Positions 59,566-64,000 of a stretch of DNA of 64,000 nt are shown here, piece by piece (within the stretch, counting starts at the first letter, position 1; every line of letters begins with the position of its first letter). A program made the position numbers and the translations under genes. Origin of the DNA: Flavobacteriales bacterium (GTDB lineage Bacteria > Bacteroidota > Bacteroidia > Flavobacteriales_D > Sanyastnellaceae); the NCBI GenBank assembly GCA_018402085.1, contig JAGYJM010000002.1:868001-932000 (forward strand), given 5' to 3'. The notes under the pieces are model-generated. The model did no database searches. It was not told the origin of the DNA and saw nothing but the letters and a program-made list of their open reading frames with translations.

Positions 59566-59961
59566 ATGGAGTTTGTAGAAAGTGTACTGCTGATCGATGA
59601 CAACCCGAGTTGCAATTTTATCATGCGCGAGTTCATTAAACTAGCCGATCCGTCTATTGAGGTGTATGAATCGGAAAGTGTCAGCGATGCACTTGAAACC
59701 TTGCGCAACCCGGAGCTCCACTTCCCGGAGGTGATCTATGTTGACCTTAACATGCCGGTGCAAAACGGATTTGATTTCATAGAGCTCTACGAAAAAGAAT
59801 TTCTTGATCTTCACCCAGATTCACGACTCTTCATGCTGACCTCTTCGCTCCGTTCAGAAGATCGTCACCGAGCCCTCATGTACCGCAGTGTACGTGAGTT
59901 TGTAAGCAAAAATGATATCGATACTTTTTTGCAACGCACGCTGCTTCGAGCTGTGGCGTAA
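59566..59961 (+). CDS. Single-domain response regulator
   Basis: 131 residues, one receiver domain and no output domain. Acidic pair in LLIDDNPSC, phospho-acceptor Asp60 in VIYVDLNMPVQNG, Thr/Ser in FMLTSSLRSEDR and Lys in REFVSKN. CheY-like proteins of this kind act through protein contacts. No kinase is adjacent; it stands alone between mnmA and the ECF sigma gene. Confidence 0.88.
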   Translation: MEFVESVLLIDDNPSCNFIMREFIKLADPSIEVYESESVSDALETLRNPELHFPEVIYVDLNMPVQNGFDFIELYEKEFLDLHPDSRLFMLTSSLRSEDRHRALMYRSVREFVSKNDIDTFLQRTLLRAVA

Positions 59962-60105
59962 CGTGTGAATTTCAATGTGCGTATATCACTGAATACGAAG
60001 CACTCTGTTACGGATCATATCGCTATTCTCAGGATTTTTCCTTTATTCGTCGTTAAATTGCGAGGCAACCATTGCAGAGAACCCTCGTCAAATTAATGTC
60101 GCGTA

Positions 60106-60666
60106 ATGGTCGACGATGAACTTCGGGAGCTAATTGAAGGCTGTGCTCGTGGGAGCCGAAAAGCTCAGGAGGGCATATATAAGCGCCTTTACGGGACAAT
60201 GATGGCAGTGTGTTTGCGCTATGCGAAAGACCACGACCACGCGCATGATATCTTACAGGAAGCTTTCCTGAAAGTGTTTGCGAACATTGCCAAGTACAGC
60301 TTCGAAGGTTCGTTCGAAGGATGGGTACGCAGAATTATGGTCAATACGGCCATTGATGCTTTCCGGAAAAAACGAACGGATTTTCTGTTGCTGGGAGAAG
60401 AACAGTCCATCGAAGATTATAAAGATGTGGCTGAAGAAGAGGAGACCGAAACGGAGTTCGAATTTAGTGTCTCAGATGTAGTTGAGGCCATGCAGGAGCT
60501 TACGCCGGCGTACAGGACCATCTTCAACCTTTACTTGTTCGAGAATTTGACACACGTAGAGATTGCAGAGAAGCTTGGTATCAGCGTAGGAACCTCAAAA
60601 TCGAATTTCGCGAAGGCGAAACGGAACCTTAAGAACATACTTCTAAACGATAATAAATCGCGATGA
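60106..60666 (+). CDS. ECF-type RNA polymerase sigma factor
   Basis: 186 residues. Region 2 (about 25-90) with KDHDHAHDILQEAFLKVFAN and SFEGWVRRIMVNTAIDAFRK, an acidic linker (about 110-130), and region 4 (about 130-180) with LTPAYRTIFNLYLFENLTHV and IAEKLGISVGTSKSNFAKAK. Its stop overlaps the start of the next gene by four bases (ATGA), the usual coupling of an ECF sigma with its partner. It may direct the neighbouring surface genes. Confidence 0.92.
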   Translation: MVDDELRELIEGCARGSRKAQEGIYKRLYGTMMAVCLRYAKDHDHAHDILQEAFLKVFANIAKYSFEGSFEGWVRRIMVNTAIDAFRKKRTDFLLLGEEQSIEDYKDVAEEEETETEFEFSVSDVVEAMQELTPAYRTIFNLYLFENLTHVEIAEKLGISVGTSKSNFAKAKRNLKNILLNDNKSR

Positions 60667-61964
60667 GCAAGAGATTAGACCCTTTTGAAAAGGGCCTGAA
60701 GGAAGCCTTACATGAACATGAGGTTCCTTACAAAGAGGGGAGTTGGGAAGAACTGGAGGCGAAGTTAACGGCAGGATCCGCTTCTGCTGTGAACACATGG
60801 GCCGCTGCCGCAGTGATCGTGTCACTTCTGGTGACAGCCGGTGCTGTTTGGTACTATACAAGCTCCAGTAATGCAAGCGCTTCAGCTCAGTCAGCAGGGC
60901 TTACACGAATGCTGTCGACCAATGCCAACTTCGAGGGCATCCGCGAAAAAACAGAAGACTTCCTTCTCGCATACGCTGATAAACGCTCCGTACTCGATGA
61001 AATGGGCAAACAGCCTATGGATTCCGAAAAAGAATCATCCAAATCAAGTGATCAAGCCCGGGCAAGAGTTTATGCAGTGCACGATGAAAGTGAGCTTGAA
61101 GAGGCTCTCGCCGCAAAAGCGGCGGATGAAGAATCTGTGGCTGATGAAGAAAAAGATGAGCCTATAGCTTCACTGCCCGCAATGGGAGATAAACCTGCAG
61201 TACCTATCAGTGTGAGCGCCCGTCAAGCTTGTGCCGGAACCAGCGTGAGTTTCAATATCGGAGCAGAACTGAAAGAAGGTAACTTCCTTTGGAACTTTGG
61301 AGATGGTAATTTTTCCAACGAACCTAATCCTTCACACACCTACGGCAAAGCAGGTACTTACGATATTACTCTCTCGATTACCAGCAATGAAGATGGGGTG
61401 ATTCGCACCAAAACGATGGACAATCTCATTGTCATCAATCCGAAGCCGATAGCGAACTTCGATTGGAGCTTCGCAGCAGACCAGGCAGATGCGGCTACGC
61501 TGCAATTGAATAATCGCTCAAGCCGCGCCCAAAAAGCCGAATGGATCATCGGAGATAAACTCAGCACCGAAATCAATCCAACAGAAATCATTACCCGTAA
61601 GGGCGAATACGATATTGAACTTTTCGTCAGTAATGAGTTTGGTTGCTCTGACCGCGTAGCGAAGAAAGTGGCGATCAACGCTGACTATGCGCTCATGGCT
61701 CCAAGTCAGTTTTCGCCTGACGGCGACGGGGTATTTGATACCTTCATGCCGCGTGCACTCTTAAACGGTGAATATGACTTCGTACTTCGCATCTTTGACG
61801 AAGGAGAGGTGATTTTTGAAACGAGCGACGCCCGTAATCCTTGGAAAGGCATCAACCAGGATGGTGAGATGGTAGATTTATCGAAAGAATACCAGTGGGT
61901 CGCAATTGTAAATGATTCTGGCAATGAGAAGTATTATAGTGGTACCGTAAGGATCACTCCTTAA
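60663..61964 (+). CDS. Membrane-anchored PKD protein with gliding-type tail, possible anti-sigma factor
   Basis: 433 residues. Short cytosolic N-terminus (1-43, PFEKGLKEALHEHEVPYKEG, WEELEAKL), one membrane helix (about 44-66, WAAAAVIVSLLVTAGAVWYY), a long acidic linker, one PKD domain (about 180-265, FLWNFGDGNFSNEPNPSHTY) and a C-terminal domain like T9SS type B tails (FSPDGDGVFDTFMPRALLN, FDEGEVIFETSDARNPWKG). Position after, and overlap with, an ECF sigma gene make the cytosolic stub a candidate anti-sigma segment; this is inference. It is unusual to see an uncleaved anchor with a sorting-type tail. The hairpin unit at 61109-61128 encodes LAAKAADE in the linker. Confidence 0.75.
   Translation: MSKRLDPFEKGLKEALHEHEVPYKEGSWEELEAKLTAGSASAVNTWAAAAVIVSLLVTAGAVWYYTSSSNASASAQSAGLTRMLSTNANFEGIREKTEDFLLAYADKRSVLDEMGKQPMDSEKESSKSSDQARARVYAVHDESELEEALAAKAADEESVADEEKDEPIASLPAMGDKPAVPISVSARQACAGTSVSFNIGAELKEGNFLWNFGDGNFSNEPNPSHTYGKAGTYDITLSITSNEDGVIRTKTMDNLIVINPKPIANFDWSFAADQADAATLQLNNRSSRAQKAEWIIGDKLSTEINPTEIITRKGEYDIELFVSNEFGCSDRVAKKVAINADYALMAPSQFSPDGDGVFDTFMPRALLNGEYDFVLRIFDEGEVIFETSDARNPWKGINQDGEMVDLSKEYQWVAIVNDSGNEKYYSGTVRITP
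61109..61128 (+). repeat. GATG-tailed hairpin unit, copy 23
   Basis: Arms CGCCGC/GCGGCG, loop AAAA, tail GATG. Co-oriented, encoding LAAKAADE. Confidence 0.85.
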
Positions 61965-61985: not shown

Positions 61986-62018
61986 AAAGGGCCCGAAACT
62001 TAGTTTCGGGCCCTTTTT
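61986..62018 (+). terminator. Strong terminator of the sigma/PKD operon
   Basis: Perfect 14-bp stem (61986-61999 with 62003-62016) with loop TTA and a T-run. It reaches almost to the next promoter element. Confidence 0.85.
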
Positions 62019-62019
62019 G

Positions 62020-62027
62020 TAGTTTTG
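62020..62027 (+). promoter_or_regulatory. -7 promoter element of the large adhesin gene (TAGTTTTG)
   Basis: Perfect TAnnTTTG directly after the terminator T-run, 25 bases before ATG 62053. Confidence 0.55.
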
Positions 62028-62052: not shown

Positions 62053-64000
62053 ATGGGGGAAACACTCCTTAAAATTGTGCGTTGGGAAAGGTACAGGAAC
62101 GTTATGTTGAGCGCATGGTTTGCTGCCGCTGTATTTTCGCAGGTTTCTGCGAATGTTCAGCCGGTTTTCAGCAGCGACTGCGCCTCGTGTGACGGAATGG
62201 CCACGGTGACCACCCTGCTCCCAGGCGATGTCACTTTTCAATGGTTCGATCAAAACGGCAACCTTCTTTTCTCTGAAATTTCAGGTACAGGAATTTCTCA
62301 GATCAATGACCTTTGTGCCGGGCTCTATCAGGTTCAGTTAACAAACGGACTCGAAGGTGAGCAGCATTGGTTTGCCATTGCAACATCCTTCGCAGATGCA
62401 GGAGCGGTAGGCCAACTTACCGCATGCGAGAGCACCGGATCATATCAACTCTATAACAGCCTGGTGAATCCTATGCCGGGAGGCGATTGGTTTGACCCTG
62501 CCGGTCAGCCGCACAACGGAACATTCATTTCGGCTCAGCAGCCCGGAGGCACCTACGTATATCAGGTGAATTCCGGCGGATGTACCCTCACTACGGCAGT
62601 AGCGGTCAACCTCATCCAGAATGCAGATCCCGGTCTTTCAGCAACTTACCTCATATGTGAAACATACGATCCTTTTGAACTGATCGACGTACTGGCTGGC
62701 GTTCCTGATGAGGGGGGGCAATGGTATAATGCCGCAGCTGAACCCATAGACGGCTTTTATTATCCGGATAGCTATGAAACCAGTTTGTTCACCTACGAGT
62801 TGAACATCGTTGATGGCTGTCCACCCGTTTTCAGCACCCTCTTTGTCATCGAGAACCAACTGCCTGACCCTGGTATTGACACTGAACTCGCCGTCTGTCC
62901 AAATGCCATCAGTTTTGACATGACTGAGCAACTCTTTGGTACACCTGACGGGGGAGGCAACTGGTTCGATGAGAATGGCGATGAGATCAGTAACATATTT
63001 GATCCGCTGCTGATGGATGAAGGTGCTTACACCTATGTTGTTTCAGGAGCAACACCTTGTCCGAACCGCGAAGCAGACCTCACCATTACCTTCACCGAGG
63101 GAATTTCATCGGGCGAAGATGCCGTGCTCGAACTTTGTGAAAATGACCCTCCGGTAAACCTTACAGATGCGCTCGGAGGAACGCCAACACTAGGTGGAGT
63201 ATGGACAAACCCACAAGGTGAATTTATTGATGCTACGATCGATCCATCCAATGCAATATCGGGGCAGTATACCTACACGGTAAGTGCGGTGGGTTGTCAG
63301 CCCGAATTTTCTGTGATCGCGGTCAACATCGCATCGATACCCAACCCCGGAGCAGGCGGGGTAACATCGGTGTGCGAGACTCAGGGTAGCATCAATCCGG
63401 CCGATCTGCTTGATGCGGATACAGGCCTGAATGGTGTATGGTTACTCAATGGCGAAGAGGTGCAAGGTGCGCTGGTGTTGGAAAGCAATCAAACCTATAC
63501 ACTTACATACTTTATAGATGGTGGTGGTTGTCCGGATGCACAATCCAATTACCAGGTGCAAGTTGACGCTCAGCCGGAAGCTATGTTGCCCCCACAACTT
63601 AACTTTTGTGCAAATGATCCGCTCGCTGATCTCTCGGAGCAGGCAGAGATGACAGCTGGGTTTCCGATTGAATGGACCGATTCACAAGGAATGATCACAG
63701 ATGGGCTATTTGACCCGTCATCAGATGCCGAGGGAAGCTACACGCTAACCCTTTTCTCCGAAAATAACTGTCCGGATGCCTCCACCGGCGTAATGATATC
63801 TGTAGAAGAATCGGCATTTCTGTCTGAAGCGGTTACCATCGATGATTGCCTTGGAGGCCAGACATACGACCTGAACGATCTACTGCCTCCAGACTTCCCT
63901 GAAAGCGGGCAGTGGAGCTTCGAGGGAAACGAAGTCAATACGGTCATTCCTGCTAATGTAGCCGCCAACGGCATTTACGAATACACCATTGACAACGGCA
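62053..64000 (+). CDS. Large repeat-containing secreted protein, 3' truncated
   Basis: Open for about 649 codons to the window end, so the true length is unknown. Start taken as ATG 62053, with ATG 62104 possible; either gives a signal peptide (MLSAWFAAAVFSQVSANVQ). The mature part is a chain of ~85-100-residue units: a Cys-containing opening (VCPNAISFDM, LCENDPPVNLTD, VCETQGSINPADLL), then a GGxW turn (GGGNWFDENG, LGGVWTNPQG, LNGVWLLNGE) and a closing YTYxV strand before the next Cys. Such arrays occur in Bacteroidota gliding or T9SS adhesins; the expected sorting tail lies beyond the window. It follows the ECF sigma/PKD pair behind its own terminator and promoter. Confidence 0.85.
   Translation, partial: MGETLLKIVRWERYRNVMLSAWFAAAVFSQVSANVQPVFSSDCASCDGMATVTTLLPGDVTFQWFDQNGNLLFSEISGTGISQINDLCAGLYQVQLTNGLEGEQHWFAIATSFADAGAVGQLTACESTGSYQLYNSLVNPMPGGDWFDPAGQPHNGTFISAQQPGGTYVYQVNSGGCTLTTAVAVNLIQNADPGLSATYLICETYDPFELIDVLAGVPDEGGQWYNAAAEPIDGFYYPDSYETSLFTYELNIVDGCPPVFSTLFVIENQLPDPGIDTELAVCPNAISFDMTEQLFGTPDGGGNWFDENGDEISNIFDPLLMDEGAYTYVVSGATPCPNREADLTITFTEGISSGEDAVLELCENDPPVNLTDALGGTPTLGGVWTNPQGEFIDATIDPSNAISGQYTYTVSAVGCQPEFSVIAVNIASIPNPGAGGVTSVCETQGSINPADLLDADTGLNGVWLLNGEEVQGALVLESNQTYTLTYFIDGGGCPDAQSNYQVQVDAQPEAMLPPQLNFCANDPLADLSEQAEMTAGFPIEWTDSQGMITDGLFDPSSDAEGSYTLTLFSENNCPDASTGVMISVEESAFLSEAVTIDDCLGGQTYDLNDLLPPDFPESGQWSFEGNEVNTVIPANVAANGIYEYTIDNG

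Follow-up and report, generated by a model that had tools for sequence, protein, structure and literature searches.

Anti-sigma factors of the Dma type are the closest described counterparts of the protein analysed here. They are reported to combine a sigma-binding N terminus, a membrane helix, a disordered tether and a C-terminal beta-barrel (PMC13088901), and an adjacent sigma factor of group ECF21 is one of the criteria by which they are recognised. A connection between T9SS genes and an ECF sigma factor is known from Porphyromonas gingivalis, where PorA, a protein with a T9SS C-terminal domain (CTD), feeds into the PorXY-SigP pathway, the details of which were called still unknown in the 2020 PorA paper (PMC7712824). 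Type B T9SS cargo proteins, which have PorP/SprF-like shuttles, carry a CTD of the CHU_C type (PMC12618676, PMC9143113). In Flavobacterium psychrophilum, promoters with a CGT -10 box have been described for an ECF/anti-sigma pair, T9SS genes and the putative regulatory RNA Rfp11 (PMC9723704).

We analysed a 64-kb stretch of DNA from a Flavobacteriales bacterium, referred to as the window, which encodes an ECF sigma factor and, overlapping it, a probable anti-sigma factor, referred to as the partner. The partner resembles Dma proteins in its membrane helix, its long disordered tether and the adjacent sigma factor gene, and its N-terminal part may likewise bind the sigma factor. In contrast to Dma proteins, it ends in Ig-like domains and a T9SS-CTD-like tail in place of the outer-membrane beta-barrel, and its design is closest to that of Dma anti-sigma factors but without their defining barrel. 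PorA is a separate surface protein that acts via a two-component system, whereas the CTD described here is part of the probable anti-sigma factor itself (PMC7712824). The CHU_C-type domain is common to the partner and to type B cargo; unlike in such cargo, a stub of 44 residues precedes a membrane helix that is probably uncleaved, in place of an N-terminal signal peptide, and the R-W-G motif is lost. The SM6 ECF-type promoters of F. psychrophilum resemble those of the window system, with the pair and Rfp11 being likened to it by description only (PMC9723704). The literature searched, which lay mostly outside subscription journals, contained no account of this design, also where it was searched for the promoter sequence and for ECF21 or small-RNA links. 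Within that literature the statement of the initial annotation that no example of this precise design had been described holds, with the qualification that Dma is a close known design.

The sigma factor gene and its membrane-anchored partner

The sigma factor gene (positions 60106-60666, + strand, as are all window features below) codes for a protein of 186 aa, which contains sigma-70 regions 2 and 4 only and hence classifies as an ECF sigma factor (Pfam Sigma70_r2, 1.1e-14, and Sigma70_r4_2, 3.2e-14, both over the cut-off; NCBIfam TIGR02937, 102 bits, also over the cut-off). The partner gene (60663-61964, 433 aa) overlaps it by 4 bp, and its assignment as a probable anti-sigma factor with a T9SS-CTD-like tail is based on its domains, its model and its sigma-adjacent relatives. 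The AF2 model of the partner was calculated from 29 input sequences and has a mean pLDDT of 73. Its first two helices (residues 7-17 and 26-37) form a predicted cytosolic stub spanning residues 1-44 (60663-60794), which is defined by alignment and by an HMM, has the consensus FE..xK......E.PY....W......L and is short, without a Pfam family match. The stub is followed by a membrane helix at residues 45-68 (60795-60866), a helix in the model that coincides with the hydropathy maximum, as the most hydrophobic 19-residue segment of the protein begins at residue 45. In some close relatives, A-x-A-like stretches can be seen by eye after this helix. Residues 69-177 (60867-61193) make up an acidic and mostly disordered linker with a single helix at 91-111 and with 25 D/E against 13 K/R among residues 70-177. 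Model confidence is low at residues 39-46, 70-92 and 111-174, with pLDDT values below 50 in the latter two segments. The model thus contains one membrane helix with a disordered tether behind it, as in Dma proteins.

The PKD domain at residues 178-259 (61194-61439) is matched by Pfam PKD_4 at 1e-19, with the best stretch at 178-251, and appears in the model as the first of two Ig-like domains; the second is formed by strands at residues 266-338 (61458-61676). The tail, residues 339-433 (61677-61961), is a well-predicted domain with pLDDT blocks of 80-94. It resembles type B T9SS CTDs, with W-x-G kept and R-W-G absent in the motif comparison, and reaches 29.2 bits with CHU_C, the Pfam type IX secretion signal (cut-off 27). 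With the NCBIfam type B sorting domain TIGR04131 it scores 19.7 bits, below the cut-off of 35, and we therefore regard it as a divergent type B CTD. An outer-membrane beta-barrel, which marks the C terminus of Dma proteins, is absent from the partner. No known anti-sigma domain was found in the partner with Pfam and NCBIfam, and the FecR family was not listed in Pfam at E values up to 1. A structure search with the whole model adds little, the best matches, at low TM-scores, being Ig-repeat fragments from the grappling hook protein and from further multi-Ig proteins; a profile search of solved structures returned PKD/Ig-like proteins, mainly collagenases, and no type B CTD.

We infer that the membrane helix is uncleaved and that the N-terminal stub stays attached, because the helix lies deep in the protein, starting at residue 45, and because the stub in front of it is conserved; given the A-x-A-like stretches in some relatives, cleavage may nevertheless occur. 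The ORFs, the Pfam matches and the AF2 model agree with the coordinates and with the architecture of stub, single helix, PKD domain and type B-like tail that had been proposed in the initial annotation, which had rightly named the PKD domain and had overlooked the second Ig-like domain. Besides this domain, the features that we add are a paralogous pair, a promoter motif at 60064-60089, a terminator and a small RNA elsewhere in the genome.

Conservation of the pair and of its stub

Relatives of the pair were collected in three locus sets, which overlap. In the first set of 60 genomes, comprising our own and 59 relatives, the partner search gave some match at E 1e-20 in 59 genomes, many of these matches being PKD/CTD cargo proteins, and as counted from the listing the best match was an ORF of 400-500 aa in 48 genomes. 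A sigma factor gene adjoins the partner in 49/49 loci holding such an ORF, a number from which L057, a long protein without the stub, was left out. The second set consists of 60 loci; the partner was recognised in 59 and the sigma factor gene lies directly upstream in 58 of these 59. L167, without a partner, and L170, without a sigma factor gene, look like gene-calling losses: the place of L167 yields a full pair as L157, and L170 is apparently the same place as L078, which also holds a full pair. Among the 79 named-contig loci of the third set, the partner was found in 30, with the sigma factor gene adjacent in 29; the exception, L134, apparently equals L032, where the sigma factor gene is present. 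Pooled, the sets contain 145 pairs, in which 106 distinct partner proteins occur. Full-length relatives were also detected, at a threshold of 1e-50, in at least 34 of 198 genomes sampled across the class, from 13 families; sigma adjacency was verified there for the retrieved part of the matches, and overlap or near-overlap of the partner with the sigma factor gene runs across this sample. Among the carriers are Cryomorpha ignava and numerous metagenome bins of Flavobacteriales. Judged by these overlapping sets, the sigma factor and its partner are a widely conserved pair and not a local arrangement, and the possibility raised in the initial annotation that the pair might not be conserved, which would have spoken against the proposal, does not apply. 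SprA_N was found in 191 of the 198 class genomes, and SprA in 33 of the 34 pair-bearing drafts, G216 being the one without a match. Since SprA is nearly universal, co-occurrence of the pair with the T9SS is uninformative.

Our own genome has 13 matches to sigma-70 region 2, and a second one of these sigma factor genes is followed by a gene for a 380-aa protein, P0003, which has a similar stub, a hydrophobic stretch, a long linker and a CHU_C tail of 50.2 bits; its match to PKD is below the cut-off. This protein belongs to a second group of 20 loci, our own included, of which 18 are of the paralogous type, with a sigma factor gene adjacent in 18/18. The remaining two loci, L248 and L249, code for longer, cargo-like proteins. 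Many second-group tails have kept a TPNGDGxND-like loop (11/18 by pattern).

The relationship between the stubs was followed with an HMM trained only on first-group stubs and run over 395 ORFs, namely the whole window, the sigma loci of our own genome, the second-group loci and the sigma loci of family f8, a set that is rich in sigma loci and favours sigma-linked matches. Every match at E <1 is adjacent to a sigma factor gene, and ORFs without such a neighbour score E 3 or worse. Apart from the window protein itself, a member of the training set, the HMM finds 17 of the 18 second-group proteins, two of them (L237 and L242) only at E 0.3-0.4, and misses L243. L220, which is stub-like, reaches only E 2.8, and most other sigma neighbours in our own genome gave no match. 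Two further matches extend the range of architectures. L333, from family f8, has stub, helix, linker and CTD and lacks a PKD/Ig domain; this suggests that, of the outer parts, the tail is the essential one. L339, a sigma-linked protein of 489 aa (E 5.7e-5), consists of the stub and, by eye, a probable C-terminal beta-barrel; it fits the Dma plan, to which it is likened by description and not through Dma sequences. Stub-bearing sigma neighbours therefore come with three types of C terminus, that is, Ig-like domains with a CTD, a CTD only, or a probable beta-barrel. Homology of the stub among sigma-adjacent proteins with such different C termini fits a role as the predicted sigma-binding domain. 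With a barrel in L339 and CTD tails, with or without Ig-like domains, on the same kind of stub, the trans-envelope anti-sigma design looks modular.

Promoter motif, small RNA and neighbouring cargo genes

A predicted autoregulatory ECF promoter, GGCAACC-N15-CGTC, is located at 60064-60089, 16 nt upstream of the start codon of the sigma factor gene. It is the only exact match in the 64 kb, where 0.06 were expected and 6/100 shuffled sequences had one; when two mismatches at most are tolerated, 15 matches occur in the window against 18 expected. Among the 106 unique pairs, in a search allowing spacers of 13-20, the form GCAAC[C/T]-N14/15-CGT[C/T] was found upstream of the sigma factor gene in 98, compared with 0.37 expected from mononucleotide shuffling, and was absent in 8. 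It mostly lies 30-45 nt from the chosen sigma start. The second group has by eye a related-looking yet different upstream sequence, roughly GGCAACTTT followed by GCATC, and the first-group motif occurs in 0/17 of its upstream regions. Across our own genome there is no enrichment of the strict motif (7 matches against 22 for the reversed control), which means that single matches carry no meaning, and we relied only on sites found again in several genomes. When six genomes were searched with the strict motif, two positions came up in every one of them, one being the sigma promoter and the other lying between the gene of an OmpR-type regulator and a gene read as rsmG. A copy inside the end of the OmpR-type regulator gene also recurs in the six genomes; as it lies in coding sequence, it was not counted as a promoter. 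We take GGCAACC-N14/15-CGTC to be the probable promoter recognised by the sigma factor.

Directly after the site between the regulator gene and rsmG lies a predicted RNA of about 87 nt with a hairpin, an invariant single-stranded core and a terminator. A comparison of five loci with Rfam gave four matches at E up to 1, all far below the gathering scores. A covariance model built from the six discovery genomes, with the promoter excluded, detected the RNA in 42 of the 60 genomes (46 matches; families f1, f2, f4 and f8). Directly upstream of the RNA, the sigma-type motif is present at 43 of the 46 sites, using a slightly looser pattern, and the three others have near-matches by eye. If the six discovery genomes, where the RNA had been located via the motif, are left out, the motif stands at 37/40 sites. 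Across the 46 matches, both-sided changes occur in 21 of 24 base pairs and the observed covariation was reached in 0/500 shuffles, in an alignment that was fitted to the structure, which favours covariation. Among the 198 class genomes only 4 contain a match to the RNA. Two of these lie outside the order (E about 8e-4); both also carry the pair, and the motif at the RNA site is exact in both. No full-length partner was found in the genomes of family f8; in two of the three, a close relative of the sigma factor is preceded by the motif (L333 and L334), and in the third, G043, the RNA is present and a close sigma relative was not found. At the sequence level, it is well supported that the sigma pair and the small RNA share a regulon in these Flavobacteriales. 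Predicted duplex energies between the RNA core and mRNA starts did not differ between 21 cargo and 221 other genes (p 0.28), and exact 8-mer complements of the core were found in 0/21 cargo and 18/222 other starts, a weak negative as these starts come from a crude gene caller. Escherichia coli sigma-E is an envelope-responsive ECF sigma factor with a small-RNA arm, MicA and RybB, that tunes outer-membrane proteins. The system described here would be alike in its proposed envelope response and its small-RNA arm, whereas its anti-sigma factor, its RNA and its signal differ from those of sigma-E.

Three large genes for CTD proteins and one small ORF follow the pair in the window genome. The first of them (from 62035, running past the window end at 64000) codes for a 1168-aa T9SS cargo protein with a canonical CTD (CHU_C, 55.5 bits). 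It is preceded by a predicted intrinsic terminator with a 14-bp stem and a T run after the partner gene (61986-62018) and by TAGTTTTG (62020-62027), which resembles the Bacteroidota housekeeping box TAnnTTTG (PMC9723704). A type B CTD gene lies on the same strand within three genes downstream of the pair in 30/57 loci, compared with 1/52 loci among the three genes upstream, counted regardless of strand. Of the 12 loci of family f1 (the window, L138-L146, L155 and L156), 9 have a terminator following the partner gene, and over all loci the count is 30/57, some of these terminators being weak. The sigma motif lies at or immediately beyond the 3' end of the partner gene in 3/59 loci. With a terminator in between and the motif rare, we rejected the cargo genes as direct sigma targets for f1. 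In L170, L172 and L175 the next gene overlaps the partner gene, and co-transcription is possible there. The strong terminator, the housekeeping-like box and the rarity of the sigma motif therefore suggest that the association of pair and cargo is positional and that the cargo need not be a direct sigma target. As far as can be read from these sites, the regulon is one without visible T9SS cargo. The neighbouring cargo does not clearly belong to the sigma regulon. The interpretation put forward in the initial annotation is partly supported: the conserved pair and the cargo-like tail stand, and binding of the sigma factor, an uncleaved N terminus and contact of the tail with the T9SS are predictions.

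The cargo-like tail and readings of its function

The tail shares its fold with secreted cargo and differs in signature. R-W-G is found in 0/29 partner tails as compared with 69/73 cargo C termini, the cargo here being long proteins recognised via the partner's own profile and not chosen by motif, and W-x-G is present in 28/29 and 73/73, respectively. In a larger and partly circular comparison, for which the cargo set was picked by a cargo-built HMM, R-W-G occurs in 0/106 first-group and 0/18 second-group tails and in 44/49 cargo proteins. At E 0.01, TIGR04131 matches 23 and CHU_C 31 of 45 relatives, and the cargo-built CTD HMM misses the tail in 4 of 59 partners (L151, L152, L153 and L202, all of one family). 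SprB of Flavobacterium johnsoniae is reported to be no longer secreted when any one of five conserved type B CTD motifs is mutated (PMC12618676). Due to the retention of W-x-G and the loss of R-W-G, the partner tails look like cargo mimics, and the likeliest reading of the motif pattern is that the tail can be bound but is not secreted. This supports and sharpens the earlier proposal that the sensor imitates a T9SS cargo.

We think it probable, with moderate confidence, that the partner is a trans-envelope, Dma-like anti-sigma factor that reports on the T9SS or the outer membrane via its cargo-like tail. In this reading, the cytosolic two-helix stub would hold the sigma factor, the single helix would anchor the partner in the inner membrane and the linker of about 110 residues would extend into the periplasm. 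As the tail has kept the cargo fold and lost the cargo signature, it is probably a decoy or receptor, derived from a type B T9SS sorting domain and itself unsecreted. It could dock on the T9SS side of the outer membrane, at a PorP/SprF-like shuttle or the translocon; PorP-like proteins have been reported to bind type B CTD proteins (PMC9143113), which makes them natural docking candidates. A change in tail engagement, depending on whether the docking site is free or loaded with cargo, would lead to release of the sigma factor. Free sigma factor would then recognise GGCAACC-N14/15-CGTC promoters and increase expression of its own operon and, in many Flavobacteriales, of the small RNA.

One might speculate further that this is a T9SS secretion-stress response, an idea that we put forward only tentatively. 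The tail would compete with real type B cargo for an outer-membrane T9SS site, the sigma factor would read the load, the small RNA would retune exports, and paralogous copies with their different promoters would watch different shuttles. We consider it unlikely that the partner is a real anti-sigma factor whose tail is an ordinary Ig-like ligand sensor or spacer, recruited from cargo and unrelated to the T9SS, with the PKD/Ig domains sensing an envelope or surface ligand. The TIGR04131 score below the cut-off, the complete lack of R-W-G from the 106, 18 and 29 tails compared and a PNGDG loop that is deleted in several first-group relatives would agree with such a sensor, but the f8 relative L333 keeps the CTD without PKD/Ig domains, many paralogous tails keep the TPNGDGxND-like loop, our own copy reaches 50 bits with CHU_C, the tail sits at the C terminus and CTD genes cluster downstream. 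Quite improbable, in our view, is export of the tail across the outer membrane with the N terminus remaining in the inner membrane, which would make the partner a dual-membrane anti-sigma factor with an exposed PKD domain sensing surface events such as adhesion or force. The overall plan of Dma proteins, whose domains run from the outer membrane to the cytosol (PMC13088901), the length of the linker and the prediction of the tail as a folded C-terminal domain are in line with it; against it stand the R-W-G counts (69/73 cargo, 0/29 partner tails) and the loss of SprB secretion on mutation of any of the five motifs, of which R-W-G may or may not be one (PMC12618676). That the partner is an anchored envelope protein in the sigma operon and merely a sigma target is very improbable, since homology of the stub is, among the 395 ORFs compared, confined to sigma neighbours of three architectures, the Dma-like barrel included, and the overlap or near-overlap with the sigma factor gene extends across the class sample, although Pfam and NCBIfam show no known anti-sigma domain.

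Taken together, we favour an anti-sigma factor whose cargo-like tail monitors the T9SS or the outer membrane. Little is understood of the way in which Bacteroidota perceive the condition of their T9SS, and the pair, together with its motif and its small-RNA output, makes this question testable. The comparison further suggests a modular build of trans-envelope anti-sigma factors, in which one kind of stub is combined with exchangeable outer ends, a barrel or a secretion-type tail, and these bacteria may well use a look-alike of the secretion tag to watch their own secretion.

Structured RNA and its predicted promoter motif

The predicted sigma promoter motif, GGCAACC-CGTC, precedes a conserved, structured RNA of ~87 nt, which in the own genome lies on the minus strand (G000:C2:2090403-2090489; locus L288). 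Further loci were found in the related genomes G037 (L309, L319 and L322), G035 (L307) and G057 (L323), with three copies of the RNA in G037 and two each in G035 and G057. When the RNA was searched against Rfam at five loci, no match came close to a family's gathering score. In each of the six genomes compared (L282-L287), the motif occurs once more, again as an exact match, ~80 bp ahead of the copy that precedes the RNA; this additional occurrence falls within the final codons of a gene for an OmpR-type response regulator.

Surroundings of the sigma genes

A stand-alone response-regulator receiver gene (window 59566-59961; family F7) is located immediately upstream of the sigma gene, and its family was found in 6 of the 19 other neighbourhoods compared. 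Upstream of the paralogous, second-group sigma genes (L232-L251), a different sequence recurs, roughly GGCAACTTT followed by GCATC, and this recurrence suggests a separate autoregulatory promoter of the paralogous sigma factor.

Probable Dma-like proteins with the same or a similar stub

A sigma-adjacent protein (L339:2028-3497) possesses the same stub as the partner and, as judged by eye, probably a C-terminal beta-barrel; it is a probable Dma-like anti-sigma factor. At a further sigma locus (L220; own genome C2:1798500-1801500), a stub-like protein of 240 aa is followed by a separate 324-aa ORF, possibly encoding a barrel of the outer membrane; this arrangement would resemble the Dma design spread over two genes.
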